Source: Stentor roeselii
Lineage: Eukaryota > Ciliophora > Heterotrichea > Heterotrichida > Stentoridae
NCBI GenBank assembly: GCA_006503475.1
Contig: RSEH01000175.1
Coordinates: 36,366 to 100,365 of the forward strand
DNA length: 64,000 nucleotides
Direction of reading: 5' to 3'
Numbering within the stretch: the stretch's first letter is position 1; each line of letters starts with the position of its first letter. The position numbers were made by a program, and so were the translations under genes. Positions 9,444 to 53,871 of the stretch are shown piece by piece. The notes below the pieces were generated by a model. That model had not been told where the DNA came from. It saw only the letters and a program-made list of their open reading frames with translations, and ran no database searches.

Positions 9444-9547
9444 ATATTGAGTAGTGGGCTGTTCTTTTGGAATACGAAATATTTTTTTAGATATAATATT
9501 GAGTGTGGACTGTTCTTATGGAATACGAAATATTTTTTTAGATATAA
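9444..9547 (+). repeat. Imperfect tandem duplication, 2 x 52 bp
   Basis: Two copies with a 52-bp period (9444-9495 and 9496-9547), each holding a TTGAG start, a CTGTTCTT block, GGAATACGAAAT and TTTTTTTAGATATAAT. They differ at a few positions and end eight bases before the ATG of the hydrolase gene. They therefore form its 5' leader or promoter. A frame through both copies is open (WNTKYFFRYN twice) but has only a TTG start. Confidence 0.85.
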
Positions 9548-9554
9548 TTTTGAT

Positions 9555-10457
9555 ATGTCTGATCATTTATTAAGAAAGGGGTTTGATATTCCAGGTCTTG
9601 AGTTCAACTTTCCTGAATTAGACTTTTTCCCTTTCACTACAAAAGACGGTCTAAAATTATTCACTTACAGGTACAGAAGTTCCAGCCCTCGATGCTTAGT
9701 AGTGAACTTCCACGGTGTCCATAGTTATTCAGCGAATCATGCCATCCTTGGCAAATACTTATCAGAAATCGGTTGTGAATTTGTAAGTATTGATCAAAGA
9801 GGTCACGGTCGAAGTGAAGGTATTCGAGGTTTGATCCCATCATTAGAGACTCTGATATCCGATAACTCTAAGTTTCTAGAAGAACTTTCATTATTTTACA
9901 GTAACCTACCCATTTACATCACTGGTGGAAGTTTAGGCGGAGCTCTTTGTTTCGCTCTGAGCTTTAAATACCCAGAGCTAGTGAAAGGAATAATCGCTTT
10001 AAATCCTGCAATCAGTGGTTTTATCAAATGTGAAAAGTTCCTCAGATGTCTTCTTTCATGTTTTTCAAAATGTTGTCCAGCACTGAAGTTATCCAAAAGG
10101 GATCCTCGAACTTTCTGTAAAAACGAGGAAATTATCAGATATTCATCAGAAAACACTTTGAATTACTCAGGAAAGGTTCGGCTTGGAACAGCGAGTACAA
10201 TCGGAAATTTAATGAATTATGTCAGGAGAAGGCCGCATTTGGTTAAATGTAATGTTTTGATTATAGTGGGATTGGAAGATACAATTGTTAATCCTAAGGA
10301 AACTGAGGAATTTTACTTAAGGTTATCAGTGAAATATAAAGATTTCTGGATTTACGATGATATTGAACATGCTATTGTTTATAGTCCGAAGATTTATCAG
10401 ATATGTGAAAGGATTGCAGGATGGATGTTGGAAATACTTAAGATATCGAAAGATTAG
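9555..10457 (+). CDS. Alpha/beta hydrolase, monoglyceride-lipase-like
   Basis: ATG 9555 gives 300 codons beginning MSDHLLRKGFDIPG; the frame is open further upstream but only through the duplicated leader and without an ATG. Hallmarks in order: the oxyanion strand VVNFHGVHSYS, SIDQRGHGRSEG, the nucleophile elbow TGGSLGGALC (GxSxG), the acidic residue in IVGLEDTIVNP and the catalytic His in IEHAIVYSP. This order and the RGHGRS motif match monoacylglycerol lipase / lysophospholipase (Hydrolase_4) enzymes, which cleave acyl glycerols. No signal peptide is obvious, so it is probably cytosolic or membrane-peripheral. The stop is TAG at 10455, 58 bp before the giant gene. Confidence 0.85.
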   Translation: MSDHLLRKGFDIPGLEFNFPELDFFPFTTKDGLKLFTYRYRSSSPRCLVVNFHGVHSYSANHAILGKYLSEIGCEFVSIDQRGHGRSEGIRGLIPSLETLISDNSKFLEELSLFYSNLPIYITGGSLGGALCFALSFKYPELVKGIIALNPAISGFIKCEKFLRCLLSCFSKCCPALKLSKRDPRTFCKNEEIIRYSSENTLNYSGKVRLGTASTIGNLMNYVRRRPHLVKCNVLIIVGLEDTIVNPKETEEFYLRLSVKYKDFWIYDDIEHAIVYSPKIYQICERIAGWMLEILKISKD

Positions 10458-10515
10458 GTTTTAAGAGTTTGATTGTACTTTTAATTTTTTTCTGGTGGCA
10501 ATGGTTTAAATAAAA

Positions 10516-13500
10516 ATGATAGGTATTCTGGTGATTTTAGCTTCTTTATCAGAAGTTAGGTCAAGTTATGTTTATTTCTATTCTTTCTCTTATGTATTCG
10601 TTAAATAGCCTTCAGATACCAGTGGGACCTTCTATGTTAATGCAAAACTCTATACTGGAGTGATTCCTATATGGTCAAGTGGGGTATGGATTACTTTGTC
10701 TCTATGGTCAAATAGTGCAATGACAGGAACCCTTTCGATGCAAACTGACGGTTGGGGCGAAGCTAAATTTACAGATGTGCGATCAGTTTACCGTGGAGAT
10801 TGGTACATGATGGCGTCATCTCCGGGATACGATACAGCTTACACAGCATGGTTCACAATAGCCACAGGAAACACCGCCTTTTCCAGCATATCATTTGCAT
10901 TAAGTCAATCAACAGTAGGCGAATACGTTTCCTTCTCAGTAACCACAACAGTAAAAGACAGTTCTGGCAACGCGATGTTGAATCCATGTCCAATGTCAAT
11001 AAGTGAGTCAGGAGGAAGTACTTTATACGGAAGTGCAACATCATTGACAATAACAGGTTCAACATCATTTACATTTTACTTTACCACAGCAGGTTCTAAG
11101 ACCTTATCAGCATCATGTTATACAACAGGTACCTACCCAATGACAGTAAGTAAGAATCAACTGACGATAACAAGTATTTCTCCAGTAATTTCTAAACAGC
11201 CTTCGAACAGTTTGACTCCATTTTCAGTGGAAGTAAGAGTTTATTACTACGGAACTACCACCTTAGTGACAAGCTACGGTCCTTACTCAGTGACTTTATC
11301 GTTAAATCCTTCAGGGACTTTGAGTGGGACATTGACTGGCACAACTTCTTCAGGGATTGTTTCCTTTTCTAACCTTTACATTTTAAGTAGAAATACTTTC
11401 ACAGTAGACGCTTCTTCTACAGACCTTCTAACAGGGAGCAGTTCAACGTTTTTCTGCACGAATTATGTGAAGACGATGAGTGTTTCTATTGACAATTCTT
11501 TACCTACAGTTCTTTTTAATCATGTTGTTACTGTTTTATTATATGGAGATGATGGAGCAGCTTTTACAGGTTCAGTCGCTGTGAGTATTTCGAGCACTTC
11601 TTTGACTGGTACTTTAAGTTTAACTACTTCGAGTGGAACAGCGACTTTTAGCTCTGTTTATTTCACGTTGTCTGGAAGTGAAATTATTACTGCTTCGGTT
11701 CCAGCTTCTAGTCCTTACTCTGCAGTTTCAGCGACTCATACTGTGACGGTTAACCAACCTAGACTAAAGATTACAGGAACTCTTGTAAGAGATATATAGC
11801 CTACTAATACGATTACTTCATTCTCTCCTACTGTCACTGTTTGGAACCATGCTGAAAATACTGTGTTAACGGTTAGAGGACCTTTTAGTATTACTCTTTC
11901 TTTCAGCCCTACTTGCACGGTTACTGGGACTCTCACTGCAAACACTGTTTCAGGAGTAGCTAGCTTTACTGGAATTACTGCAAAAACTGGAGGTACTTTT
12001 ACTCTTACAGCAGCATATGGAAGTTTTGTAAGTGGGACAGCTTCTATGACACTTTCAACATATGTCGGGAGTATCCAACTGAGTTCTTCGACAATGTCCC
12101 CGACTATGAATTTTGATTTTACAATTACAAGCACACTACTAGCAATCGACTCTAGTGTTTATACTCCAGTGATCACGGTAACACTTTCAGGAGTTGGACT
12201 GGCTGGAACAATTCAAGGGAACACTGTCTCAGGATCAGTTACCCTTACTGTGTATGGAACAACAGTTAATAGTGCCATGGTAATTACAGCGACTATTCCT
12301 GCATCTTCCCCATTTGTAGGAGTTAGTTCTTCAATTACTGTAAATGTTTTGATTATGATACTAAAGATCACATCTTTTACAGCAGTAAGAAATAAGTAGC
12401 CAACCACCACATTGACTCCATTATCACTTACAGTAGGAGTTTACGATAACTCAGGTGTCAATGCGGAAATAGTACGGGGTCCTTATTCAGTAAGTCTTTC
12501 CTTTTCTCCAACTGTTTCAGCAGTCGGAACAACATCATCAAGTACATCAAGTGGATTTTATACTTTTTCAGGAATTACATTAGCAAGTACAGGGTCATAT
12601 GTTGTTACAGTATCAAGTTCAGGAATAACATCAGCATCTACAGCAAGTTTTTCTTTGTCAACATATGTGAGTCAAATAACACTCTCATCCTCAAACTTGA
12701 CCCCAACAGTGAATTTTGCCCATACAATAACAGCGACATTGAAATCAGCAGATGGACTCACTTATACAGGAGCTTGCTCACTAACATGTTCAGCTCTTAA
12801 TCTTGGAGCAGGATCAGTGGCTGGATCAAATAACCTTGGAACGGCTACTTTTTCGATATACTTTACTATTGCAGGTGCAGTGACAATCACCGTTAGTGCT
12901 CCAGCCTTTAACGGATATTCAGCAGTAAGCGCTACAATAATTGAGACTGTTCAAGCTCCACTACTCAAGATCACTACTTTCACTGCAGTAATATCAAAAT
13001 AGCCCACAACTTCTTTAACAACTTTTTCGATAACAGTCGGTGTTTATGATAGTACTGGAGCGACTCTAGAGAATCTTCGAGGACCATATACGATAAGCTT
13101 AAGCCTCAGTCCTGTTGGCACTTTTTCTGCAACTGTTAGTGGTTCAACTTCATCTGGACAATTCACATTAACTGGACTCAGAATTCTTTCAGCTGGAACT
13201 TTTACATTAACTGCAAGTTCCACAAGTATGACATCAGCAACAAGTTCAAGTTTTACAGTGACAAATTATGTTTATTCAATGACTTTAGCTACTTCAACGA
13301 CTTCACCTTCAGTTAACTTTTCGTTTACAATAACTGCAACTTTGAAAGGAGAAGACAACAATGCATATATTGGGTCTTGTTCTCTATCACTATCTAGTAC
13401 TGGAGTTTCTGGAATAGTTTCTGCCTCGAATTCAGCCGGAACCGCAATATTCAGCATTTATTATTCATCTATTGGCTCTAAATCTATAACAGTAACAGCT

Positions 13501-16500
13501 CCAGTATCAGGTTCTTACCCGTCTGTTGCGGCTTCATTATCATCAGTGGTTGTTTTAATCCAAATCCTAAAAATTACTTCATTCACAGCTGTAATCTTTA
13601 CTTAGCCAGCAAACAGTCTTGTCTCCTTTTCATTAACAGTAGGTGTTTATGATAACTCAGGTGTAACAGTGGAAACACTCAGAGGACCATATTCTATTTC
13701 TCTCTCTTTAAGTCCTTCAGGTAGTTTTGCAGGTACAACTACATTGAACACAGCCTCCGGAACTGTAAATTTTTCTGGTCTACGAGTCTTATCAGCTGGA
13801 ACATTGACCATTGTTGCAGTAAGTACAGGAATCACTCAGGCATCAACTTCAGCATTTGTAAATATAAACTACGCATTTACTGTTACTTGCTCAACAAGTA
13901 ATGCAACCCCTTCAGTGAACTTTGACTTTACAATCACAGCAACTATAAAAGGTGAGGACAATAATATCTTCACAGGCACTTGCGCAGCAACCCTAACCGA
14001 AACATCAGGCCAAACCGTCTATGGAACCACAAGTCTTTCAAACACTTCAGGAACGCTAAATTTCGTAATCTACTTAGGCACTGCAGGAACTAAAATAATA
14101 AGAGTAACCTGCGCAGCTATAGGCAGCAGTCCCGCAGTTTACGGAGATGTATCAGTGAACATTCTTTCATTAACCCTAAAGATAACAAGTGTATCTCCAG
14201 TGGTATTCTCTAAATAGCCAACCAACTCTTTGATAGCATTTTCAGTTTCAGTAGGAGTTTATAACAACCCTGGAACAATTGTAGAAAGTTTAAGAGGGCC
14301 TTACACAGTTGCTTTAAGTTTGACTTCGACAGGGACTGTCTCAGGGACTTCTATTTTGGGGACTGTTTCGATTAATACTGCTTCTGGACTAGTCACTTTT
14401 TCTTCATTGAGGATCTTGTCGTTGGGGTCTTTTACTGTAACTGCAACTAGCGCTAATATAGTGACTGGGACTTATTCAGGGATTTCTACTGTCAACTATG
14501 CCTTTTCTATGACTCTTGTAAGTTCTATTGCTACTCCTACTAGATTTTTTGATTTTACTGTGACTGCTAGTATTAAGGGTGAAGATACTTTTGCATTTAT
14601 TGGGTCTTGTGCTGCTTATTTGACAGAAAATGGAGGGACTAGTATTTTAGGAACTACTAGTTTGACTACTACAACCGGCACAGCAGCATTCAGCATTTAC
14701 TTCACAGTCCTAGGAAGCAAAACAATAACCTGCACCTGCCCAGCAGTAGGTTCAAGTCCAGGTACAAGTGCAACAGTTTCAGTGACAGTTCTAATCCCAT
14801 ATCTAAAAGTGAGTCTTTTTTCCCCAATCGTAAAAAAAATATAGCCAACAACAAGTTTGACAACTTTTTCAATTTCAATTCAAGTCTACGACAATACAAG
14901 GACTTATTTAGAAAACGTTCACGGCCCTCATTCAATATCTTTAATCCTGGTACCAACAGGGACTCTTTATGGAACAACAGTTGCAAGTACTTCTGCAGGG
15001 ACAGCTTCATTCACAGGACTTCGAATTTTATCAGCTGGAAGTTTGAGTGTGCAGGCTTCTTGCACTAATATGATTTCAGCGACATCTGTACAGACTACTG
15101 TTGTGAATTATGCGTTTCAAGTCACTTTGGCTAGCAGTACTTTGAGTCCTTCGGTTAACTTTTTATTTACATTGACTGTTACTATTAAGGGGGAGGATTT
15201 GAATTTGTTTAAGGCCGCATGCACTGTCACACTCACCGGTACTAGCTTGGCTGGTGGACTTACTGGAACTACTTCTACTGGGTTGTTAACTTTGCAGCCT
15301 TATTTCACGGCTACTGGCAGTAAAACTATTACTGCTACATGTCCAGCATCAGGATCAAGTCCAGCAGTCTCAGGACAACTAACATTTAACGTCTTATTAC
15401 AAATGCTAAAAATCACCTCATTTACACCAGTATTATCCAATTAGCCAACCAACAGTCTATCACAATTTTCTCTAACATTAGGAATCTACGATAATTCAGG
15501 AGTCTCAGTTGAAAACAATGTAGGAATATATTCAATAACCTTAACAATAAGTCCAACTGCATCAGTTTCAGGTGTATGGAATGGAAACACAGCAAGTGGG
15601 GTTTTGACCTTATCAGGCTTAAGAATATTAGGAAGAGGAACATTTACATTATCAGTCATTTCTTCAGGACTAACTTCAGTAAGTACATCAAGCTTCAGTG
15701 TATATAACTACGTCTATACAATAACTTTAACCAGTTCAAGCTTGACACCCACAGCTTATTTCTCTTTCACAGTCACAGCTGTACTTAAAGGTGAGGATAG
15801 TCAAAGTTTCACTGGCACATGCGCTTTGACATTGTCTGAAACTTCGGGTTCTACTATCTTTGGAACGAGTTCTTCTACTGTTACTACTGGATCAAGTAGT
15901 TATTCTATTTACTTTTCTGCTATAGGAGTTAAAAATCTTAAAGCCTTTTGCCCCGCATCAGAGTTGAGCCCTAGTGTTGAAGGAACCCTGTCAATAACAG
16001 TTCAAAGTTTAATCCTCAAATTTATTTCATTAAACCCAACAGTAACATTCAAACAGCCTTCCACAAGTTTATCCTCATTTTCAGTAACATTAGGAGTCTA
16101 CAACAGTTTAGGAACAATAATCGAATCAACAAGAAGATCCTATCTGATAACTTTATCATTATCTGGAAGTGGAATATTTTCAGGTATCATTGAAGGTACA
16201 ACGACTTCAGGTCAACTTACCCTAAGTGGATTACGAGTGTTATCCTCCGGTTCATTCAGCCTATCAGCGAGTTGTCCAGATGCAACTTCAGCTATCTACG
16301 CGTCAACACTGACAGTGACCAATTACGTCTATTCAATGAGCCTCAGCACATCATCAGGAAGCTATTCAAGCAACTTTGAGTTCACTCTTGTCGTGACTCT
16401 TAAAGGTGAAGATCAAAACTTGTACCCAGGAAGCTGTCTCGTGACTTTAAGTGAACTTAATGGATCTACTTTATCTGGAACTAACTCGGGTTATGTTAAT

Positions 16501-19500
16501 GCTGGGACTGGGTATTTCAATTTGTGGTTCGTTGATTCGGGAAATAAAAGGGTACAGGCTTCGTGTTCTTCAACTGGAACTTCAATACCTGTTACTAGTT
16601 CTATTCAGCTTTCAATTCTTCAGAATATTTTGAAAGTTGTTGCGATTTCGCCGATTGTAAATTTTATGTAGCCTACTTCTAGTTCTGATGTTTTTTCGGT
16701 CACTGTCTCTGTTTATGATAATTCTGGAACAAATGTTGAAACTGTCAAAGGGCCTCATTCAATTTCAATTTATTTGCAACCTTCAGGTAATATGATTGGA
16801 ACACTTTCTAGAACAACATCTGCTGGATCTGCCGTTTTTTCTGGATTGCAAATAAAATCTCAGGGAATGTTTAATATTATTGCCTCGTCCACTGGAAAAG
16901 TGTCTGGTATGTCGATCAGCTTTTCAGTCGCTAATTCAATTGGATCTATTGTATTAACCTCTTCAACATTGAGCCCAACTTCAGGTTTCAGTTTCGAGGT
17001 CACTGCAACTATCAAAGGAGAAGATGGAAATTTATATGGCTCTGATGTTACCGTAGCTTTATCTGCCACATCTGGAGAGCTGATAAGAGGCTCATTATAC
17101 AAAATCACATCATCATCAGTTACAACTTTTCAAATTTCATTCATGAGTTCAGGTAACAAAGTCCTCCGAGCATCAGTAAGCAGTGTTTATACCGATTTAT
17201 CCCTTACAGTGCGTTCATCAGTTCTAAAAATCACTCTAAACCAATCAGTAATCCTTATTCAGCCAACAACTACCAGGACAAGTTTCCAATTAACAGTTCA
17301 AGTCAAAGATACTGTGAACGGTTCTGTTGAATCTGTGAACGGTCCTTATAGTATAAGTCTGGCGTTTTCTCCTTCAGCAGTGTATGAAGGGGTGTTGACA
17401 GGATTGACTCAAAGTGGTTCAGTCACTTTTTCTAACTTGAGGGTGTTGAGTGCAGGAACATTTTCAGTCATTGCAAGTTCAAGTGGTATCACTGCTGCTT
17501 CAGTCTCGATCGGTCCTTTAAGTACTTTTCCGTCTCGATTAGCTATGGTGACAAGTAGTTCTAATCCTAGTGTCAACTTTCCGTTTACATTGACAGTTAC
17601 AATTTACGCAGAAGACTCAACTCTCTATACAAGCCCTGCGACACTAACATTAACAAGTGACTCTCCATTTATAGGGTCAACAACGATAGAAAACACATCC
17701 GGAACAAATGTATTCACACTAAGATTCCAAAGTGCAGGTGGTAAATACTTGCAAGTGACTTCAGGGTCATTATCAACCAATATAATCGTGACAGTCCTTT
17801 CATTAGTTTTCAAGATTACCAGCTTTTCACCTGTATTTGACAAACAGCCCGCTCTTAGCACTACAAGTTTTTCAGTAACTGTTGGAGTTTTCGATAACTC
17901 TGGAACTATAGTGGAATCTTTGTATGGAGTTTATACTGCAGAACTGCTACTTGACCCAACTGGAAAAATTTTAGGAACTGTGAGCAAGTCTACAACTGCA
18001 GGATATGCTACTTTTACTGGACTTCGAGTATTGTCCTCTGGAAGCTTTTCATTAAAAGTGCAGTCTTCTGGGTTATTAAGTGTTTCGAGTGTTTCTAGTT
18101 CACAGTTCTTGGTGGCCAATTTTCCCTATTCCTTATCAATCGATTCATCATCCCAAACCCCATCAGTAAACTTTCCGATCACTCTTTCAATCTCAATATA
18201 CGGAGAAGACCAATCCCTCTTCCTCGGATCCTCATCCCTAACCTTATCAGACCCAACCAATACAATCCGAGGTCAACTAACATCATCATCAACAACCGGA
18301 AAATCATCCTTATTAATCTACTTTTCCTCATCAGGAAGTAAAACAATTCAATTAACAGTAAACTCAATCACATCAAGCCTTACCTTTTCAGTTCAACCAT
18401 TAAAGTTAAAACTCTCAAAACTTTCCCCTCTTGTATTTTTTATTCAGCCTTCTTTCACCCTGGACCCTTTCGAAGTCGAGGTCTGGGTGACTGACAATTC
18501 AGGGAATTCATTGGAAGGAACATACGGCAGTTACACAGTCAGCTTATCTTTAAGTCCTTCAGGAAGCTTGTCAGGTCCCGTCTCAGTCATCGCTGTTGCA
18601 GGCATTGCAAGGTTCACTAGTCTAAGAATTCTCTCAAATGGAAACTTTGCAATAGTCGCTTCTTGTTCAGGCTTTTCAAGTGTGAGCTCGAATGTGATGA
18701 GCATCACGAACACTGTTTACAGTTTGACAGGAAGCAGTAGTACTTTAAGACCATCGAGTTATTTTTCATTTGTTGTCACTGTTAATATTTTAAATGAAGC
18801 TGGAAGTAACTTTGTTGGGAATCGACTGGTTCAGGTTGTTGAAGTTGGAGGAAGCAGTGTTTTTGGAGTTAATAGTTTGAGTACAAGTAATGGACTTGCG
18901 AGTTTAAAGATTTACTTGAAGGATACAGGAAGTAAGACTTTAAGATGTGTTTGTTCGACTGTTACTTTTGATATTTCTATTGTGGTTGATTCTTCGGTTC
19001 TTAAAGTTGAGTTGATAACTGCGGGAGTAATTTTTATTCAGCCGAGTACGAGTAATGATGTTTTTTCTGTCAAGGTCTCAGTGTTTGATGCGGCAGGGAT
19101 TAACATGGAGGGGAATTATGGACCGCATTATATAAGTTTGGCGCTTTCGGGTTCTGGACTATTGAATTCGACACTTTCTCAGATGACTTCATCAGGAACT
19201 ACAACTTTTAATTATTTGAGAGTACTGTCATCAGGAGTATTCACTTTAACAGCTTCGACTATTAGTACTGGGATTTCTTCTGGTACTGTTCAACTCTCGG
19301 CAGTGAATAACTTTTTGTTTAAGGTCGAGGCGACAAGCGCCTCGATTGTTTCTATGTATTTCACCTTGACAGTGCAGATTAGATTACTTGGAGAAGACCT
19401 CCAACTTTTCTTGACTAGCACTTTAGTGACGATGACCAGTGCCTCGTCTTTCCAAGGCACAAGTCAACTTTCAATAACAAACGGGATCGGTACTTTTTCA

Positions 19501-22500
19501 ATATACTTTGAATCTGCAGGTTCCAAATCACTACAAATTTCATCAGGATCTATTTCCACAGATCTATCTATCGAAGTCCAGGCATGTCGACTAATGATAA
19601 CTTCATTTACTGCAGTAATTTTTAATCAGCCATCAAATAGTGAGATGACCTTTTCCTTAACAGTGAGCGTCTTTGATCAAGCTGCTTCGATGATTGAACA
19701 AACTCGCGGTGTTCATTCAATTTCTTTGAAGTTAGTCCCTGATGGGCAAATTGTTGGAAATGTCCAGGGTGTTACTTCTGCTGGGGTTATAACCTTTACT
19801 GGGCTTAGAGTCACTAGTGCTGGAATGTTTAGTATTTTGGCTGAAAGGACTGGGTTCTTAAGTGATTCTACTGCTCAGTTTAATGTGGTGAATTTTCCTT
19901 TTCAATTGCAAACTGTTAGTGACTCGAATCGGGTTAGCTGCTTTTTTGAGTTTTATTTTCAAGTCGTTGTTTTTGCGGAAGATGGCAGAAGGTTTTTATC
20001 GTCGGTTAATGTTTATATTGACCAGATTGCCTCGATGACATCGACTAGTGGAAGTTATAATGTTGTTACAAATGATGGGTCAGCAGATTTCACAGTATTA
20101 TTCTCAACAAGCGGAACCAAAACACTAACATCTCGAGTAAATTCAATCCTCATATCCCTCCAACTTGAAGTAACAAACCTAAAGTTAAAATTCGAGACCC
20201 AGCCATTATCAGTACCCTCTAATCAGGCCTTACAAAGCACAGATATTTTTTCAATATCAATCTCAATCTACGACGATACTTTATCGACAATCGAATCTCA
20301 AAGGTCTCAATTCGAAGTATCCCTTTCCCTAAGCAACAACGGAGTATTCTTCGGAACAACCACGTCTTACACGTCTTCAGGACAAGCGACTTTCACAGGT
20401 CTTCGCATCTTATCAGGTGGTTCTTTCATCATAACAGTCTTCAGTTCCAGCTCTGAAGTGACCTCTGCGCAGACCTCTTCAATTTCAGTGCAAAACTTTG
20501 TTTATTCCATAAGCCACTCGAGTCCTTCAACTGTTTCTGTCAATTTTGAGTTCACTTTAACTGTTTTCGTCAAAGGAGAAGATGGACTTCCTTTTAATGA
20601 TTTTGCGAATATTGTTGTTACTGGTGTTAGTGGATTAGAAGGAATGGTTAGTCAAGAGACTAGTGTTGGAAGTGCAGATTTTTTACTTTATTTTACGAGG
20701 TCGGGAAATTTTGAGTTTTGGATTAGCTGTTATGGAAAAAGTCAACAGGTTTCTGTTGTGGCTTTGAAGAATTCTTTGAGGATTGTGAGTGTGGTGCCGA
20801 GTGTAATTTTTAAGTAGGTGTTGACTAGTGCAGATACTTTTACAGTAACAGTAGAAGTGCGAAACAATGAAGGTACACTAAAAGAAAGCCTAAGAGGACC
20901 CTACACAATATCTCTCTCCCTCGAACCTCAAGGCACTCTATCAGGTGTATCATCCATAACCACTTCACAAGGAATCGCCATCTTCTCAAACCTTCGAATC
21001 CTAAGCCAAGGAGTCTTTTCCCTCAAGGCCTCATCGCCAGACTCCCTGTCATCAATCTCCTCCTCAATCTCAAATACAAACTCCTTATTCACTCTAGTCC
21101 TCTCAGCCTTCACATTAACCCCCAGCCAAAACTTCGACCTTCAAATATCAGTTGAACTTCATTCAGAAGACGCCCTTCTTTTCACCCAATCATCAACAAT
21201 AACAGTCTCCGAGAGCTCAAATCAACCATTTTCAGGGTTAACTTCAAAGACAACATCAACAGGTTTAACAACTTTTTCATTATCATTCTCAACCCTCGGA
21301 GTGAAGTCACTTCTCTTCGAATGCAACTCAATTCAAGAGTCGTTAACAATAACAGTTGTTTCATTGAAATTACAGATCTTGTCAGTTTCGCCTTATGTAA
21401 AAATTAAATAGCCCAGGACTAGTCTTGAGACTTTTGATGTGGAAGTTGGAGTTTATGATAATGATTTAGGGACTTTAGAGAGTAGTCAAAGTTATGTGAT
21501 TAACTTGCAAACTGAACCTGCTGGAGTCTTATCTGATAGTCAATCTGTTTCTACTGTTAATGGAAAAGCGAGATTCTTGGGGATTAGGGTCTTGTCTGCT
21601 GGAAAATTTAAGATTAAGGCTTTTTGTTCTGCTGCTTCACCGGCTTTGTCTTTGGAATTTCAGGTTGTGAATTTTCTTCATGTTATTGAAAGTAAGGATA
21701 GTAGTCCGAGCGTCTCGGCTGGGTTTTGGATTGATCTTGGATTTTGGCTTAAGGGTGAAGACTTGCAAAGTTTTAGTGGTGAGGTGAGTGTTAGTTTGAA
21801 TTGTGAGCAGAACTTTCTAGGGGATAGATTGAAGAGTTGTAGTCTTGGGGAGTGCTTGTTTAGGGTTAAGTTTTTGACTTCGGGAAGCAAGTCCATGTCA
21901 ATCACTTCAGGTTCAATAAGTTCCACTCTAACAATAACAGTACTCCAAAAAAAACTTCAATTTGGCTCCTTACTCCTTGTAATTTCTAATCAGCCCAGTC
22001 AAAGCACTCAACTATTCCAAGTGCAAGTACTAATAAAAGACAACAACGGAATCACCTTAGAATCTGAAGGAAACAACTACGAAATAATTCTCTCATTATC
22101 CAGTCCAGGTCTTTTATCAGGTCTTTCATCAAAGTTAGCTTCATCAGGTTCAGTATTATTCGAAAACCTTCGCGTATTATCAAGTGGTTCATTTACTTTA
22201 ACAGCAAGTTTACCAGATACAATATCCTCAACATCCAATTCTTTTTCAGTAACAAACTTCCCTCACATCCTCGATCTTTCCTTTTCTCCTTCCCAAGTGA
22301 CAGCCTTCTTCGAGTTCACTTTAACAGCGACAGTGAAAGGAGAAGACTTTTCTTTATTCTCAGGTCTTTGCACAGTGAAAATTTCTGAATCAGAAGATTT
22401 AGAAGGGTCATTAGAAAACTCAGGAAATTCAGGAATATTCATTTTTTCACTGATGATAAAAAAATCAGGGAACAAGCAAATCCAAGTTTCAATCGGGTCG

Positions 22501-25500
22501 ATTTTTTCTTTAATCAATATTCAAGTTTCTCAGGCAGTGCTTAAATTAACTTCTCAAGTGCCAAGCGTATTTTTTACTTAGTCCTTGACGAGTACAGACG
22601 AGTTCTCAGTGACTATCGGGATCTACGACGCTTTAGGTGTTAATCTCGAGATTTCACAGAAAACCCATCAAGTCAATCTTTCTCTTTCATCATCTGGAAC
22701 CCTTCTCGGAGTTCTTTCTCTTCAAACCACGGCAGGAGTTGCTTTATTTTCAAATTTAAGAATCCTTACAAAAGGTCTCTTCAGTTTAATCGCGTCAAGT
22801 TCAGACATGGTGCCTTGTTCATCATCAGAAATCACTGTAGAAAGTACTTTATTTGCCCTTAGCTTGACAGTAAATCCTTCTTCTCCAACAATGAACTTTA
22901 ATTTCTTGGTGACTGTTGAAACTAGCACTGAAGACTTGAAGTTATTTTTAGAAACGGCTTCTGTGACTGTGAATATTTTGCAAAATGGACTTGTTATTGC
23001 TCAGAGCAATGTTTTGACTAGTTTTGGAAGTGGAAGTCTTTTGATGCATGTTGGAATTGGTGGAAGGATTGAAATTAAAGCGAGTTCTGGAAATGTTGAG
23101 AAAAGTGTCTTTGTTGATTTGATGAAACCGAAGTTGAAAATCGTGGAAATTAGTCCTTGGGTAATGATTATTTAGCCTTTATTTACTTCAGAGGTTTTTA
23201 GTGTTAGAGTCGCTGTTTATAACAGTGAAGTTAATAAGGTTGAATCTGAGTATGGACCTTATTCTGTTGTTTTATCGGTTGTGGGAGATGGGTTTGATGC
23301 TGCACTTGATGGAAATCCGATTTCGGTTAGTGTTGCAGGATTCGCTAGTTTTAATGCAATTAGGATTAAAAAACAGGGAACTGCTCGTGTAAAGGTATCA
23401 GCGGATTTACTTGAATCTGCTGAGTCTGAATTGATTACTATTAAAAATGTCCTACACTCATTTACAGTATCATCATCCGATCCAACCCCAAGTGTAAACT
23501 TTTACTTCTCCCTAACAGTGAGCCTAATGACAGAAGAAGGTACTTTATACGAGCCATCCACTCCTCTATCAATTCTCGATTCAACAAATACCTTAAAAGG
23601 TTCAAAGTCCTCCTCCTCATCCAAAGGCATCTCAATCTTCGACATATATTTCACCTCATCCGGTCTAAAAACACTCCAACTAAAAAGCCCAACAATAACA
23701 TTTCCCTATTCAATCGAAATTTTCCCTCTAAAGCTTCAACTATCGCCTCCAGTTCCACCAGTAATCTCTTCATAGCCACAATCAAGTAAAGACAAATTTT
23801 CAATAAAAGTATCAATTTTCGACAATTCCCTTCAATTCAAAGAAACTCGTTTCGGCGAATACGAAATAACCCTTTCACTTCCCAGTCCTTTCAAAATCTC
23901 AGGAATTTCTTCAAAAACAAGTAAAAACGGTGAAGTCGACTTCATCGACATAAGAATTCTTTCATCAGGTCTTTTTAATCTCCAAGCAGAAAGTCCAGGA
24001 CTTATTTCAGGATCAAGTATTGAGTTAGAAGTTTTCAACTTTCCATTTAAAATAACTCCGAAGCTTCCTGAAGGTAGATTCAGTCCTTTCTTCGATATTC
24101 AAGTCCAGGTGGAGGTCTTTGGAGAGGACTTGAATCTCTTCTCTCAAAGTGCGACTGTTCAGATCTCTGAAAAACGTGCTGAGAACTTTTTAGGTGATAA
24201 AAGTGTTCAAGTTGTAAACGGCAGAGGAACTGCGCAGTTTTACTTTACCAGTTCAGGAAGTAAGACTTTGAGATTTGATCTTGCAGGAGTCACTGGCAGT
24301 TGTGAGTTGAACATTGAGAAACTTGTGGTTAAAATCACTTCGGTTAGTCCTTTTGTAAGATTTATTTAGCCGAAAAGTAGTAGTGATGCTTTTGATGTGG
24401 TTGTTAAGGTCATGAATGTGCAGGAGGAGGATGTGGAAAGTATTAATGGAGCTTATCTTGTTACTTTGCAACTTAGTTCAAATGGAACTTTTTCAGGGAC
24501 TTTTACAGGAACTACTGTTTTCGGGTCGATTGAATTCAATGGACTTAGAATTTTGTCTAATGGAAATTTTTCTATTGTTCCTGTGTCTTCTGGGATTACA
24601 TCTAAACAATTTGATGGACTTTCTGTTAGGAATTCGGTTAAAAGACTTGACTTTTATTTACCGAGGAATGGAAAAGCTGGGTTTATGGTTGATTTGAAAG
24701 TTGAGGTTTTTGGAGATGATCTGATACTTTATAAGAATCTGGTTGAAGTGGAAATTTTTTCGAATTATTCTGCAGTTGGGGGAACTTTGGTTAAGGCGAC
24801 TAACTCTGGGTCTTTGAATTTTTCGATTTATTTTGATGAGGTTGGATTTTTCTCAGTTTCAGCGAAATGTGAAGGTTTTTATCAGTCCGGCTCCATAACA
24901 ATAACAAAAAACATAAACCCAGACCCTCTCTGCTACGACCCTAAATCCACAGAAAAATGTTTAACCTGCATAGAAAACGCAAAACCACAGAAAGGAAAAT
25001 GCGAGTGCATCGAGAACAGTCATTTTTCCGACACCTTAAAAACCTGTGTCTGCAATTCAGGTTATTCTCTAATCCAAGGATTCTGCATAAAATGCGGAAA
25101 CTACTTCAAAAAATCTGAAATCTCAGCAGAACTTCTCTCAGACTACAAGTCAATAAAAGTCTCATTCAACCGAACAGTTTCTCAAACAATTTTCCCATCA
25201 TGTGCCTCATTTATTTCCTTATCAACATGCGACAACTTCACCTGCATCTGGGAAAATTCAAGAGCCCTGCTGATCCAAGTCAACTGCGAACCTTTGCCTT
25301 CAACTGTAGAAGTCGACGCGGTTCTCATTCAAGCTTTTGGTTCTCTCTGCACTCAAGAAATCGAGCAGCTTAAACTTTCCTTAATCTTACCTAAAACTGT
25401 ATCACCTCCAAAAACCTGCCTTTCAGCCCCTGAGAGTTTTTTCACTAAATGTGGAGAAGGGTACTTGTCAGTATTTTCAAATTGCCCTGATCCTTATGTC

Positions 25501-28467
25501 AGCTATTCTTGGAAACTTAAAACAAGTCCTGAAAATCAAGACCTTCAAAATCGAGTTCTTTCTTTTAAGGAAAATTTTTTGAATATTTTGAGTTTTGAAC
25601 TGTTTGAAGGGACTTTTGTTTTTACTTTGGTTGCAAGACATCGACTTTTTAATTTAATGAGTCAGGATTCGAGGACTGTCAAGGTGTTTAATATGACCGG
25701 ATTCACTGTGGAAATGACTTCAGGGAACTTTGCGACTGTTAAAAGAAGTCAAAGTTTTAGAACTTCGACTGTTGTGAAAAGTTGTGGAGATGATGATTGG
25801 AGCTTTCAGTTGAAGTATCTTGGAAAGGAGAAAATTGATTTGAAATCTGTTGGGTTTTTTAGGGGAAATATTGAAATTCCACCTTTTGTTTTGGAAACTG
25901 GGAAGAATTATAGCTTTGGAATTGAGGTTAAGGGAAAGCAGGGAGGGAGTAGTTCTGCTGGGTTGAATTTATTTGTTTTGATGAGTGATTTGGTTGTTGA
26001 GTTTTCTAGGTCTTCTGGAGAAGTTTCGGTTGATTCTGAGTTTAGAATAAGTGCGATTGTTAGTGATCCTGATAACCCCAAAGAGTCTTTTACATATTCC
26101 TGGACCTGTCTTCAAGGTTCAGACATCTGCAAAGACAAAGACGGTTATTACCTAGTATGGAACCAAAACTCAAAAGACCTAATAATATCAAAAGGCAAAC
26201 TTATCCCAGAAAATCTTTATTTCATATCCCTATCCACATCAAGTCCCTCTAAAACTTCAACAAAAACCATCCAAATCAAAGGATCATCAAAATCCCCAGG
26301 TCAAGTTCTACTAAAACCCCTTTCATCCAAGATCAACCCAGGAGTCCTTTTCCGAATTTCAGCAGAAATCCAGTCAATCAAATCTCTAACATTCAACTGG
26401 AAACTTTCAAGTGAAGGACAAGAACTTCTTCTCGATTCAAGCTATTCTTATCTATCCCTTCCTCAAAATTTCCTGAAATTCGGAATTGTTTACACATTAA
26501 CTTTAGAAATTCTTGCAAAGACAGAAGGAATCTCATCATTTATTTTAATCAGTACAAATGATGCACCTTTTTGCAGTGGTATTGAAATAGAAGATAAGGA
26601 AAGTTACTCGGTTATCAATGGTTTTGGATGTTTTGATAAAGATCTGGATAATCCTCTTTTGTATCAGTTCAGTGTGAGTGGAGAAGGAAAAAGTGTTTAT
26701 TTAAATTCGCCTGTTTTAGCACCTTTGATTAAAAAACGACTTCCGGACTTTACTCAACAAGTCAAGGTCAAAGTTTGTGATTCACTTGGACTTTGCTCGG
26801 AGTTCAAAGAAAACTATAAAAAATCAAGGGTTTTAGAAGAGTTAAAAGATGCAGACTATTTACTACTTTTCTTGAATGAGATTAAAAATTATGATGATTT
26901 ACCTGTCAGTTTTATTAACTTTATTGGAAAAGTCACGGAATTTGGCACTTTTAAAGAAATTTTCTTATATTTTGAAGAGTACTTCAAGGAAGTCAGCAGA
27001 GATTCTTATAATCTTGACCTGCTTATCAGTTGTTTAGATATTTTTTTCTCGTGTGACAAGAACTTTATTTCAAAAACAGCGAATTTGACTTTTTCTTTGA
27101 TTTTTGACTTTCTTTCAGAGATGAAGACAGAAATCAGTGAATCTCAAGGCGAGTCTTTAATGGAATTTCTTTCAAATCTGAAAAATTCTTTAGAACTTCA
27201 AAAGATTTTCACCTTTTCTCATGAAATCACTAAACTATCTCTAAAAAACTCTTATCCAAACATGAAAACTATTCACACCTCAGAAGTCTTTCTCTTCACA
27301 TCTCGAGGTCATCAAAGTTTTTACTCAAGTAAAACTTTCTCAAATTCAATTCTTTCTCTAAACTTTCCTGAAATGAACGAATTTCCCTCTTCAGAAATTT
27401 TAGACATTGAGTTGATTTTCTTTGAGTTGAATGAAAAAATTTATATTTCTTTAAAGATTTATTCAGAGGTTGATTATGAGAACTATACTTTGAAGTTAAA
27501 CAACAGGTCGATGGCGAGTTTTTATTTAACAAGCCCGATTCAAGTGATTTTAAAGCGAGTTTCAAGTGATTCGATCAAAGACTGCATTGGACTGGGCAGT
27601 TCTGGCTGGGAACAAGAAATCTGCAGTTCAGACTCAGAAAAAATAAACATCTATTCATCAGGGTATCTCCAAATCTCCTACTACAGTACTTCGAGTCCCT
27701 TTTATCTTTACATAGAATGGGCAATCGGTTCAGTGATTTCTCTTTTAGGACTAACAACCCTTCTCTTTCTAAAACTTGACAAAGGAGAAGTTTCAGCGAC
27801 TCAAGATAAAAAAACCTTTTTCACGCTTTATCCTCTTTCAAGTCTGACCATCACTCAACCTCGACCATGGCGATTTCTGACTTCATTCAAACTACTTTCA
27901 ACAACTTCAAACTTACTTTTCCTTTGCTACTTGTTTTCTTATCTCTTTTCAGAAAAACTGCTAACAAAAGGCCAGGGTCAACAAATAGTTCCATTGATAT
28001 CCAGTGAGTTACTCAATATTTTTCTCACTTTCCTTAATTTCAAATTCCTGAAAAATTCAAAATTTTTCTGTATGACACTTTTCGTTCATCTTTTCATTTT
28101 CCTTTTAAATTGTGCAGGATTTGCTTATCTTTATCTCAGCTTTTCAGTACCTGAGGACTGGGTTGAGTTGTTTTTAGTTTCTTTTTCTGGAAGTTTGTTG
28201 ATTTTATCGCCGGGATCATCGTTTTTTTTCAGATTTTTCAGTCAAAATCGAATTTCAATGATTTCAGCACTGCCCAGGGTGCAATCAGGAAGTATTGTAG
28301 AAGACTTGAAGATTCTTAAAGAGAACTCGGAAGATGAGACCGTCTTTTGTGAACGGGATTCACCTTTAAAGGCCAAGCCGAAGACTTTAAGAGCTTTTAA
28401 AAGCCAAACGTCTAGAAAGGTGAATCGACCTGATTCGATCAACTCGAGCGTCACTTTAAATAAGTAG
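10516..28467 (+). CDS. Giant repeat-bearing surface protein, 25 exons, REJ-like and multi-TM C-terminus
   Basis: Reading from ATG 10516 to TAG 28467, one frame runs through 24 introns of 15 nt, giving about 5,863 residues. Exon 1 encodes a signal peptide (MIGILVILASLSEVRS). Exons 2-24 each encode one repeat of about 190-204 residues; exon 25 starts with the 24th. Each repeat holds two beta-sandwich halves, with hallmarks VGVYDNSGT, RGPYTVSLSLSPSG, FSGLRILSSG, then TPSVNFxFTITATIKGED, GTASFSIYFT and GSKTITATCP. After the repeats come a Cys-rich EGF-like region (about 24920-25110), a region resembling REJ/PKD modules of polycystin-1-like proteins, a Cys/Trp pair suggestive of a degenerate GPS site, about five hydrophobic segments (about 27700-28240) and a short basic tail. 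Inference: an adhesin or receptor at the cell surface. Without splicing it looks like 15 separate genes. Confidence 0.88.
10594..24369 (+). other. Array of 24 phase-0 15-nt introns
   Basis: Intron starts (each 15 nt): 10594, 11185, 11785, 12385, 12988, 13591, 14203, 14830, 15430, 16042, 16657, 17248, 17833, 18433, 19027, 19615, 20212, 20803, 21397, 21979, 22567, 23161, 23761, 24355. All begin GTA; 15 end TAG and nine end CAG. An A at intron position 10, the expected branch point, is present in 23 of 24 (the exception is 23761). Examples: GTAAGAGATATATAG, GTATTTTTTATTCAG. Fourteen of the TAG acceptors interrupt the long frames as apparent stops; the CAG introns are open and would be mistranslated as V...Q pentapeptides. 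Every intron is in phase 0 at the same place in the repeat, just after a strand of the LKITSFSP type. Confidence 0.92.
10609..24900 (+). repeat. 24 tandem protein-coding repeats, about 0.6 kb each
   Basis: Repeat units coincide with exons: 10609-11184, 11200-11784, 11800-12384 and so on to 23776-24354, with a 24th at the start of the last exon. Unit lengths are 567-612 bp, all multiples of three. The protein pattern is conserved but DNA identity between units is visibly low, with different synonymous codons, so the array is old rather than a recent satellite-like expansion. The first unit is the most divergent. Confidence 0.88.
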
Positions 28468-28477
28468 TTAGCCATAA

Positions 28478-29107
28478 ATGCAAAGTTTAAAAGCAAGAAC
28501 TATCGGAACTGACCTGCTGTTTTACTACTTGAAATACCAACAAATTGAAGAAGCTTCTACTATGCTTCAGAGAAGAGAAGTTGGGGTTAATGATCAGGAC
28601 GTTAATGGTAAAACTGCACTTCATGTCGCATGTGAAATGAATACTCCCAGTACGGTTAGACTTTTATTGTCGCATAGGGCGGACCCGAACATTCCGACAC
28701 ATTTAGACGTCGGTTACTACACTGCTTTACACAAGGCATGTGAAAAAGGCAACAAAGAAATAATCGAACTCCTTCTAAGAGCCGGAGCCGACATCAATGC
28801 CAGAAATAAAGTCGGCCAAACAGGTCTCCATATTCTGGTAAGACAGAAAAATGTAGAACTTGCCAAGTTTTTATTAACTGCTGGTGTTGACCCTGAAATC
28901 CGTGATACTGCCGGGTGCAATGCGAGTTTTTATGCGAAAACTGCAGGACTGAAGGAGTTGATAGAAGTTATGCCTGCTCCTGTGAGTATGAAGCCTGAAG
29001 AAGCAATGGATTATCATCTTTTTGTTAGGGCAGTTCTTGGATTCGACCCTAGCACTGCTGGGAAGAAGAAAAAGGGAAAGAAGGGGAAAAAGGGGAAAAA
29101 AAAATAG
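28478..29107 (+). CDS. Ankyrin-repeat protein with Lys/Gly-rich tail
   Basis: A 209-codon frame beginning MQSLKARTIGTDLLFYY, 10 bp after the giant gene. Residues about 45-150 hold three to four ankyrin repeats (GKTALHVACEMNTPSTVRLLLS, YYTALHKACEKGNKEIIELL, GQTGLHILVRQKNVELAKFLL). The tail is a run of Lys and Gly (KKKKGKKGKKGKKK), coded by purine-only sequence. Ankyrin repeats are protein-interaction modules; the basic tail could bind nucleic acid, tubulin or act as a nuclear signal. No enzymatic domain. The stop is TAG. Confidence 0.85.
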   Translation: MQSLKARTIGTDLLFYYLKYQQIEEASTMLQRREVGVNDQDVNGKTALHVACEMNTPSTVRLLLSHRADPNIPTHLDVGYYTALHKACEKGNKEIIELLLRAGADINARNKVGQTGLHILVRQKNVELAKFLLTAGVDPEIRDTAGCNASFYAKTAGLKELIEVMPAPVSMKPEEAMDYHLFVRAVLGFDPSTAGKKKKGKKGKKGKKK

Positions 29108-50400: not shown

Positions 50401-53400
50401 CTACATTTCTCTGAAATCTGTCTTTTGACTCACAATTTCCTCAAAATAAGATCTCTTACAACTAACCCCTTTGTAAGATTCAAAATTAACCTTCACCCTC
50501 TTGAATCCATCTAAAACTTCCTTAACCTTAAAAGACCCCTTCCTTCTTTTCATCTGTATTTCCCAATAACTTTCAAACAATGCCATTAAAGCTCCAAGAA
50601 ACTGCAAAATTCCAAAAACAGAGCCAAAAAGATTAGAAAAAAACAAGAACCAAGTGAATTTCAGAGTCCTTTGAGTAACCAACGCATCCGAAGCAGTAAG
50701 AAGTCTGATGTTGATTCTCAAAGACGGATATGAAATAAAACTGTTTAATTTTTACCTTGTCTGAGAATAAGCCGACCCGATTTTGTGCTGCCCTGAGTCA
50801 GAAATATGAAACCCGGTGCTTCGAGTAGGCCAGGAACGACTTTCAGAAATGAACAATGAAGGGTGAATGACGAACTCGAATACTGAAGGACTGGCTCCTC
50901 GGAAGACTTCATGGTTGCTTAAAGGTTTAAGCGATTTCAGAAGTCCACTCATTTCATCTGGAATCGATGAGTTGCTGGTGATATTCACTGAGATTATGGA
51001 GCAGTAAGCTTCATCGTCAAAGGAAATAATAGAAATTGAAGCCAGGTTTATGATTTGACAGTTGAAATATGTGATGTTTACATGACAGTTCTCTTCGAAT
51101 TTGGAGAGATCTACGATTTTAGATGAGAATTTCAGGTTTTGTTCTGTGAGAATCAACTTTGATTGATGCAAGTCATCTGACAAGCACTTGCCACCGTAGT
51201 ACCTGAGCGTCACGAAGACCATAAAGACCTCAGCAATGATTTCATCTTTAATGGTCTCAAGAGGCACAAGAGCTTTACTTTCTTTGATATTATCCATCAA
51301 GTACAAATAAAACGACCCAATTATCGAGTAGCAGGAAACAAACACAAAAATCAAAGTAAAAAATCCTCCAAAGCTGGTACTTCTGTACATAACTGGACCA
51401 TTCAACTGATTCGGATGCTGCATCATGAATAAGTCAATTTTTTTCATAAACACTCTGAACTTCTGGAAACAAAAAAATAACGAAAAAGCTAAAAAACATG
51501 CAGGGGCCAATGCAAAAGTGATCTTCACAGAAATGTCTTTGTATTCTGATTTGTAGTCCTGAGGCTGAATAGAAACTTCTTGAATCTCTGCAGAGTCCAG
51601 CTTGGGTCGCTGAGTTCCAATGAAACAAGTGAAGCCTTCCTCGCATTTTCTGCATTGCGTCGCTTGTAATTCGCTGGAATATGTTCCGAAGCCGCAAGGC
51701 AAACACGAAACTGAAGACATGAGTCCTTCAATATCGGAAAACTTTCCCTTTCCACATGGAACGCAAGAGTTGTTTATCAGAAAAGTTCCCTTTGGGCAGA
51801 ATTCGCAGGTTTCTGATATTAAAGCTGAACTGCAAGGAACTTTTAAATCTTCTTCAAAGTCAAGCTTTATTAAGCTGTTTGAATAGCACTTCTCGAAGTA
51901 AAGCTCGCCTTCTGTCATGCAACCGCCGAATAGAAAAAAGGATTTATTGAAATGGACCACGGTTTGACTGTGAATGAAGAGAGGAAACTCGTGTAAAGTG
52001 CTTTTAAAGGTCTTTAAGTTGAGTTCTAGAATGATGTTTGAGGCGTATAAACCGTAGAATGACCCGAAGAAGATTAAAGCTGTTTCAGAAAATGTGATGA
52101 TTGAGGAATGGCTGTAAGTGAAAAGTAGTTCAGTGTCGTATTCTTTTGATAAAACTTCAGCGTAAAAGGTTTCCTGTTTCAATGAAATCTCGATTTTGTA
52201 TTTGAAAATGTTTTGTCCAAGCTTTGATGTTTCACCTCCTAAGATCTTTATGTTCGATTGTGAATTTGAGTAGTTGTATCTGATGCATAAGTTATTAAAA
52301 ACTCTCACTGTTTCCCTCCCGACCCATTTCACTAAAGCAATTTTGTTTGTAAAAAAGTTGAATACATAGATTTCATCAGTACTTCCCGAAGGTGTCAGTC
52401 CTCCTATCAATAAAAGGTAAAATTCTGCAAATTTTTCAATGCAGGTCCCAAGTCTCGGCCCTGGCATTTGGCCTTCAAATTTCGTTGTAACCCATTCGTT
52501 AGCTTTAAAAGCATAGAAATAGATATCATTATACCATATGCTTCCCTTTCCTCCAAATATGAAGAATCCCGCATCAGCCTCCTGATAAAATCCAAAACCG
52601 ATGCGAGGTTGAGGAATGTCACCAGCTGGGTTCAAGCTGGTCCAAACGGAGGTTTTCAAGTCAAACCTCCAAAGATCACCTAATCTGCATAATTTTTACA
52701 TAAGATCCTCAGCCTCTCCTCCATAAATATATAAAAAGTAGGTAAAAAGAGCCATTGCATGATTTTTTCTCTTGCAAGGACAAATATAATCACGACTAAG
52801 TACATCAAGAGTCAAAGAAGGGAAGGTCACCCTGATGACCTCATTAGTTGATCGATCATCTGCCCTTCCACCAGCTAATATAAAAGACTGGTTGATGACT
52901 AAAAGTGAACTTAAAGACCGAACTGATAATAAATCTTTAAAAGTAAAAATCACTGTCGATTCAGCTGTTTTCGGATTGATTTCTAGTATATTGAAGTTTG
53001 ATATTCCTTTTTTTGGAAAATAACCTCCAACTAAGTAGATTTTTGAGTTTAAAGTGAATAGATTGTGAGAAGTGATTAATAAGCTTTGGTTTGCTTTATC
53101 AGAAGTGATTAAACTCCAAGTTTGGGAATTCAGGTCGTAGACTTTGAGTCCTGTTGAGTACGTGATGTTCACTTCATCTCTTGGATTCGATTGGTAACCG
53201 TAAAGATAAAGCTTACTGTTTAGGTAAGTTAAAGATTCGGAAGATGAAGGCTGTAAAACTTCACCTGATGTGCGGGGCTCGAAGAAAGAAAGTGACCAGA
53301 CGTCAAAACTTAATGAAACTTACAGGTAAAATTTTTTTGATAAACCTTTTGAGCTGAATCCTCCAAAAATTGCTATGAGATCTTTACCTTCATGAGTGAA

Positions 53401-53817
53401 ACTTGTTGAGGCACTGTAGCAAAGACCGGGAATTTTACAGTTGTCATGAGCTTTCCATACTTTAGAAGTGAGATTAAATGAAAAAATATCGTTTATGAAT
53501 CCTCTATCATTGCATCCTAGTATTGAAAGTAAAATCCTGTCTTTTCTAATGAAGAGTTGCGTCGAACCTAAAGGATTAGGTACGAAATTCGATTCAGGCA
53601 TGATGATTCCCCATTCCAAATTCAAAACATCAAAAGTATATAAACTACTATCATAAGTGTTTTGCACTGAATTTTTCATTCCAAAAAAAATAATCCTGTG
53701 TTCGACTTCATCATAAGCAGACCCTGCAATAAAAAACTCATCAGGAGGAGCATAAGCTTTAGGTATAACTTCAAATTTCAGTGCAAGTGCTAATCTAAAA
53801 ACTAAAATTCTAATCAT
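50401..53817 (-). CDS. Kelch / Cys-rich / transmembrane receptor-like protein B
   Basis: Exons 53817-53324, 53308-52700, 52684-50756 and 50740-50401 (494, 609, 1929, 340 nt) give 1,123 residues. Introns: 53309-53323 (GTAAGTTTCATTAAG), 52685-52699 (GTAAAAATTATGCAG), 50741-50755 (GTAAAAATTAAACAG). The start MIRILVFRLALAL at 53817 gives the same distance to KFEVIP as in paralogue A; an upstream Met at 53871 would touch the kinase gene and adds an unlikely hydrophobic run. Domains match paralogue A: signal peptide, kelch blades, Cys-rich module (CEFCPKGTF, CVPCGKGKFS, CRKCEEGFTC), two transmembrane helices, outer domain and a C-terminal helix (WFLFFSNLFGSVFGILQFLG). The first intron uses an AAG acceptor. 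Confidence 0.86.
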
Positions 53818-53871
53818 TATTAATAAAAGATTAAAAAACACAATCAATAAAAATCCTAATCCTAAAGCCAC

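Follow-up and report, generated by a model that had tools for sequence, protein, structure and literature searches.

A giant repeat gene with 24 putative 15-nt introns

The window, a stretch of 64,000 nt of the Stentor roeselii genome, carries on its + strand one gene that spans positions 10516-28467, from an ATG at 10516 to a stop TAG at 28465-28467. Its frame contains 24 boundary segments of the form GTA-N9-YAG, every one of 15 nt and in phase 0 (15 end in TAG and 9 in CAG). No in-frame TAA, TAG, or TGA was found in the whole gene frame outside these 15-mers and the final TAG. Removal of the 15-mers leaves 25 exons, each a multiple of three in length, and a spliced frame of 5863 sense codons. 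A first-pass annotation had listed 24 introns of exactly 15 nt, all in phase 0, and 25 exons with lengths in multiples of three, and our independent derivation arrived at the same figures.

Exon 1 (10516-10593, +; 78 nt) provides the start codon and a hydrophobic leader of 26 aa that is signal-peptide-like by eye. Exons 2 to 24 (10609-24354, +, introns between) hold one repeat each; these 23 exons measure 567-612 nt (189-204 aa) and encode two Ig-like domains apiece. Exon 25 (24370-28467, +; 4098 nt including the stop) encodes one more repeat, a Cys-rich stretch, a REJ-like domain, and C-terminal hydrophobic segments. The gene has 24 repeats, the 24th within the last exon, because the first 15-mer divides the leader exon from repeat 1. 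The REJ domain (PF02010; 26062-26805, +) was matched with an E value of 1.3e-12 and 47.5 bits (cut-off, 25) when 25900-26900 was searched alone, a score that depends on the cut: with the whole 1172-aa tail there was no match at E 0.01, and a further two cuts scored 20.6 and 17.5 bits. In a simple hydropathy scan, four Kyte-Doolittle peaks above 1.6, two of them overlapping, fell at 27721-28149 (+) and are likely to represent about three membrane helices. After splicing, the product would be a giant secreted or cell-surface protein of 5863 residues, with a putative adhesive role.

All 24 15-mers lie on the + strand. Those ending in TAG are introns 1 (10594-10608, GTATTCGTTAAATAG), 3 (11785-11799, GTAAGAGATATATAG), 4 (12385-12399, GTAAGAAATAAGTAG), 5 (12988-13002, GTAATATCAAAATAG), 6 (13591-13605, GTAATCTTTACTTAG), 7 (14203-14217, GTATTCTCTAAATAG), 8 (14830-14844, GTAAAAAAAATATAG), 9 (15430-15444, GTATTATCCAATTAG), 11 (16657-16671, GTAAATTTTATGTAG), 18 (20803-20817, GTAATTTTTAAGTAG), 19 (21397-21411, GTAAAAATTAAATAG), 21 (22567-22581, GTATTTTTTACTTAG), 22 (23161-23175, GTAATGATTATTTAG), 23 (23761-23775, GTAATCTCTTCATAG, the sole one without A at position 10), and 24 (24355-24369, GTAAGATTTATTTAG). 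Those ending in CAG, without an in-frame stop, are introns 2 (11185-11199, GTAATTTCTAAACAG), 10 (16042-16056, GTAACATTCAAACAG), 12 (17248-17262, GTAATCCTTATTCAG), 13 (17833-17847, GTATTTGACAAACAG), 14 (18433-18447, GTATTTTTTATTCAG), 15 (19027-19041, GTAATTTTTATTCAG), 16 (19615-19629, GTAATTTTTAATCAG), 17 (20212-20226, GTACCCTCTAATCAG), and 20 (21979-21993, GTAATTTCTAATCAG).

On either side of the gene, an alpha/beta hydrolase frame (in the interval 9447-10516) stops 58 nt upstream of the ATG at 10516, and an ankyrin-repeat frame begins after a 10-nt gap behind the stop codon (28467-28478). Among the window open frames longer than 600 nt under the standard code, 1 of 32 ends in TGA. At 53320-55551 (-), a single open frame has a Pkinase match (E 6.1e-30) and kelch-like matches (below cut-offs) separated by an in-frame TGA at 53872-53874, which would fit TGA as a Trp codon; two separate genes are the alternative.

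Predicted fold of the repeat and related proteins

The predicted structure of a single repeat consisted of two Ig-like domains (pLDDT 95.9). In a model with the pentapeptide of a 15-mer read through (residues 101-105), residues 100-104 alone fell under pLDDT 50. On these models, the intron site probably follows the opening strand of the first Ig-like domain instead of marking a domain border. The first-pass annotation had placed all introns at the same point of a repeat of roughly 195 residues. A single homologous site is indeed used, with the corrections that intron 1 parts the leader from repeat 1 and that each repeat is a pair of Ig-like domains.

The top ten PDB matches in a Foldseek search included intimin (6tpl; rank 1, E 1.5e-06), InvE, invasin (1cwv), and SbsC, and also complement C5 and GH2 glycosidases, with TM-scores of just 0.3-0.5. 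A profile search matched the repeat to S-layer chain 4uid (E 0.004). No tested repeat reached the Pfam gathering score of 34.9 for Big_1 (PF02369), the best scoring 20 bits, and Big_1 was matched at E <0.01 in 1 of 23 repeats. The repeats thus resemble bacterial Ig-like domains of the invasin, intimin, and S-layer type (Big_1 and SbsC) in their tandem beta-sandwich fold but differ in belonging to a eukaryotic gene with introns, in their sub-cut-off Big_1 scores, and in their low TM-scores. The gene also shares its plan with REJ-bearing receptors (polycystin-1 and the sea urchin receptor for egg jelly): an array of beta-sandwich repeats, a REJ domain above cut-off on the C-terminal side, and then hydrophobic segments. 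Polycystin-1 carries PKD repeats, where the window gene has two-domain Ig-like units instead. Polycystin-1 is described with 11 membrane helices in the part of PMC9672506 consulted, compared with about three suggested here by the hydropathy scan.

The 15-mers have the properties of heterotrich introns

There is little doubt that the 15-mers are ordinary heterotrich introns. All 24 begin with the codon GTA, compared with 80 of the 479 Val codons (17%) of the spliced coding sequence (p about 2e-19), and A occupies position 10 (A10) in 23 of 24. The intron middle is 85% AT, against 62% in the exons. When the codons of the exons were shuffled 500 times, phase-0 GTA-N9-YAG occurred on average 0.56 times per whole gene, with a maximum of 4. 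GTA and A10 are present in nine of nine CAG introns, and the CAG acceptors were not significantly clustered along the gene (9 runs, p 0.11). These nine stop-free introns could be retained without damage to the frame. Although every exon is 0-0, alternative skipping of exons is unlikely, given intron definition at 15 nt.

The same signals recur in 106 introns of the gene family described below. A10, which was no requirement of the scan, is present in 104. The 39 introns that end in CAG, without an in-frame stop, and the 67 that end in TAG are alike in A10 (39/39 and 65/67, respectively) and in AT content (0.849 and 0.847, respectively). Besides the acceptor TAG, TAA occurs in two of the 106 and TGA in three. 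No in-frame TAA, TAG, or TGA was found in 107 repeat exons of the family, taken as in-frame stretches of at most 760 nt between neighboring aligned boundaries.

Protein kinase genes of the same genome served as a control. In-frame stops were present in 12 of 135 scored protein-kinase matches (1346 candidates), and all 12 fall inside a 15-nt segment with a GTA start, A10, and an AG end. Removal of the segment joins GT|PFYMSPEIL or GT|AYYIAPEVI in three of the 12, which we take to be the end of the kinase activation loop. These kinases were picked by their in-frame stops and are biased to stop-bearing introns, so the control shows that 15-nt introns exist in this genome, not how frequent stop-free ones are.

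If the 15-mers were instead coding, with TAG read as glutamine through reassignment or readthrough, each would add a V-x-x-x-Q pentapeptide before a conserved proline. In favor of this, nine of the 24 already read as open codons, with CAG (Gln) as the last, TAG is reassigned in some ciliates, and an F-x-x-Q-P motif is frequent near the corresponding place of bacterial Ig-like repeats. Against this, the valine codon would be GTA 24 times in 24 and never any other, and the glutamine codon CAG nine times in nine, although the gene prefers CAA over CAG by 118 to 40. TAG is absent from ordinary coding sequence (none in the 107 repeat exons or in the window gene's coding sequence), and two family introns contain an in-frame TAA as well (three more contain TGA, probably Trp here). 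Such segments interrupt the activation-loop motif in kinase genes of the same genome, paralogue boundaries that lack them are mostly 15 nt shorter, and the pentapeptide region is the sole stretch of the model under pLDDT 50. We consider a coding role barely credible and infer that all 24 segments are spliced out.

Published heterotrich introns have the same form. In the sections consulted, PMC9505925 gives 92.81% of annotated Stentor introns as 15 nt and, across all Stentor introns, a position-10 branch-point A in 90.90%; PMC11441545 gives about 95% of heterotrich introns as 15 nt; and PMC9942806 describes the introns of Blepharisma stoltei as predominantly 15 and 16 bp (genome of 41 Mbp, 66% AT, UGA=Trp). 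In one of the two origins that the first-pass annotation offered, the introns diverged in sequence but never in length. Their letters are indeed saturated, but the uniform length is no riddle of this gene, 15 nt being the heterotrich norm in the portions of PMC9505925 and PMC11441545 covered.

Paralogous arrays contain boundaries with and without introns

At least 138 places in the genome match one repeat used as the query, and at least 28 match the C-terminal module. The family sample comprised the window and 11 further regions, part of those found, with 169 repeat matches in 12 strand-regions. Thirty-nine of the 169 were set aside (no alignable start or a score below 40), 29 of them in the divergent arrays C506a, C195, and C275. 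The 130 usable boundaries comprised 106 with in-frame GTA-N9-YAG, 2 with a variant (GTG...TAG in C432 and GTA...AAG in C490), and 22 with no intron. The first-pass statement that no repeat boundary lacks an intron therefore holds for the window gene but not for its paralogues. AAG 3' ends were seen on two 15-nt A10 segments, C490:104098 (GTAATTATCAAAAAG) and a kinase on C34 (GTAATCGTTAAAAAG), and are possible non-YAG acceptors.

Among intron boundaries with a measurable gap, 94 of 102 exceed the repeat profile by 15 or 18 nt. Of the 19 measurable boundaries without an intron, 13 lie at -3 to +6 nt relative to the profile and 6 at 15 nt or more; these six may hide unrecognized introns. Two boundaries without an intron, C201:50874 (support, 83) and C432:118318 (support, 85), sit within intron-bearing groups of the repeat tree and read like a spliced junction, e.g., tttactgca|ccagcg. 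They are most simply explained as clean intron losses. The intron is also missing from the last boundary of the arrays in C50, C490, C432, and C264, whose last repeats group together (support, 80), and the last repeat of C119, with its intron present, adjoins this group (support, 86). This pattern fits both an old loss and original absence. The last boundary reads LAFTIQPP in C50 and LVFTSSPP in C490, resembling the F-x-x-x-P with which bacterial Ig-like repeats start.

At C264:161105, 15 additional in-frame nucleotides without splice signals (ACGCTTTACACCGAA) stand where paralogues hold the intron, a possible case of an exonized former intron. The region C335:9900-17900 is a paralogue by its tail with another type of repeat, Cys-rich and LamG-like by eye, and is stop-free for 2666 codons. 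This gene (a 5184-aa open frame, 8 kb of it read) does not bear on intron loss at the site studied here, its array being a different repeat. Long repeat arrays without introns apparently exist alongside those with one intron per repeat.

The boundaries without an intron also bear on intronization, in which the 15-mers would once have been coding (V-x-x-x-Q before Pro) and then gained splice signals, the CAG forms perhaps still being partly retained. The CAG forms are open codons, and in many the intron plus the next codon reads V...QP. Composition and A10 are nevertheless the same in CAG and TAG forms, the AT content of 0.85 is unlike that of exons, and boundaries without an intron are mostly collinear with the spliced rather than the unspliced protein. 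We regard intronization as improbable and continue to treat the 15-mers as ordinary introns.

Probable amplification of the repeat together with its intron

The pair C195:24226 and C195:23554 is the only recent duplication among the arrays sampled, and the window gene has no equally young pair. Over the unit of 672 nt the two are 93.6% identical, and their introns agree at 14 of 15 letters; in this pair, the intron was copied along with its unit. On a quick tree of the 130 repeats, intron state required 14 changes, compared with a mean of 20.7 for shuffled labels (0 of 300 shuffles as low); label shuffles within arrays gave 19.25 changes, with 2 of 300 as low as the observed 14. The tree is unrooted and has little support (stars on 15 of its 127 inner branches), and gain is therefore not formally distinguished from loss. 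Across genes, repeats at matching array positions pair in the tree in several cases, both among C50, C490, and C432 and between C195 and C506, and arrays therefore appear to have been copied as whole genes as well.

Intron identity does not track exon identity (rho, -0.05; 5565 pairs among 106 introns), and the same holds for C88 alone (-0.05, p 0.63). Identity at four-fold sites was 0.35-0.37, the background level, in all classes below 60% protein identity. Because silent positions are saturated, the missing correlation does not argue against descent, and an intron tree is uninformative. Deeper duplications are thus beyond the reach of the intron letters. The first-pass annotation had proposed trees of the repeat exons and of the introns as a test of amplification with the intron in place; the repeat tree responded, with clustering of intron state, and the introns themselves gave no signal.

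The first-pass annotation had offered two origins, amplification of the unit as repeat plus intron or many insertions at the same site. Independent insertion into many repeats, for example at a proto-splice site, would account for the lack of a descent signal in the intron letters below 60% protein identity, for the 101 distinct sequences among 106 introns, and for the 14 or more changes of intron presence on the repeat tree. Unlike introns are, however, also what descent predicts when silent sites are equally saturated, intron state clusters on the tree beyond the shuffles, and the lone recent duplicate has its intron. Moreover, insertion would need about a hundred events at one codon boundary, while the 107 repeat exons contain only three in-frame GTA-N9-YAG, about the chance level set by the gene's codon shuffles. 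Repeated insertion is not needed to explain the array, and we rate it as quite unlikely, if slightly less so than intronization. Amplification of the repeat with its intron is instead supported by the C195 pair and by the clustering on the tree.

We are confident in an explanation in which the unit and an ordinary 15-nt intron were copied together, giving paralogous arrays with later losses or original absences. Each unit would be one exon plus one ordinary phase-0 heterotrich intron (GTA...A10...YAG). The protein would open with a leader, followed by 24 tandem units, each a pair of invasin-like Ig domains, then by a module that is Cys-rich and REJ-like, and finally by membrane helices. The ancestral unit presumably already held the intron, which would have had a single origin. 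Tandem duplication, probably by unequal crossing-over, would then copy unit and intron jointly, and whole-gene duplication would scatter arrays over the genome. Neutral change would saturate the intron letters, while a spliceosome adapted to tiny introns would preserve the length, GTA, A10, and YAG. Certain paralogue boundaries would later lose the intron cleanly or may never have had one. The first-pass annotation had judged 15 nt too short for exon shuffling by recombination within introns. Such recombination is not required: for a unit with 0-0 symmetry, unequal crossing-over at any point of the 600 nt would suffice for amplification.

Discussion

Exon-per-repeat genes are familiar from animals, titin and the collagens among them, and animal introns are far longer than 15 nt. 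By comparison, an intron of the window gene accounts for about 2.5% of its unit, and conservation within it hardly extends beyond the splice signals. The PTS domain of chicken Muc13 likewise has one exon per repeat in the part of PMC1552070 consulted. The tiny introns of heterotrichs, in the passages covered for Stentor coeruleus (PMC9505925), share with those of the window gene the length of 15 nt, GT...AG, A10, and AU-richness, and those covered for Blepharisma stoltei (PMC9942806) agree in length. These passages make no mention of once-per-repeat placement, whereas here one site of a repeat family holds an intron more than 100 times in a single genome. Our literature search found no report of once-per-repeat tiny introns among the matches listed (in one set, the best 15 of 6,212), with few subscription papers covered. 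Tiny introns and exon-per-repeat genes are each known; what appears new, among the matches listed, is to find both together, with the same site of a single repeat family occupied more than 100 times within a genome.

The stop-free introns offer a second contrast. In the part of PMC5014332 consulted, introns of 3n length in five other ciliate genera are rich in in-frame stops, whereas 39 of the 106 introns counted here are stop-free, with a CAG end. In a speculative reading, the introns would act as a regulated valve, with splicing efficiency governing how long the surface coat is and whether it is anchored, and with selection keeping the once-per-repeat placement. If any one of the 15 TAG introns were retained, the protein would end after whole repeats, because a phase-0 TAG acceptor is its own in-frame stop, and a soluble ladder of adhesive ectodomains without a membrane anchor would result. 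The nine CAG introns would be permissive, adding just a flexible five-residue hinge. We think such a valve improbable, on a par with intronization.

The mechanism is not exotic, but as a natural experiment on how introns are inherited and lost, and on how far stop-free 3n introns are tolerated, the gene is unusually clean. It also suggests that an exon-per-repeat plan does not require introns long enough to recombine. Introns are usually compared site by site between species; here, more than 100 homologous introns occupy a single site within one genome. With its variants, clean absences, and a possible exonized remnant, the family makes countable what an intron needs (GTA, A10, YAG, and length), the rate of clean loss, and the tolerance of stop-free 3n introns. 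The gene family is thus a natural laboratory for the spread, decay, and disappearance of introns.
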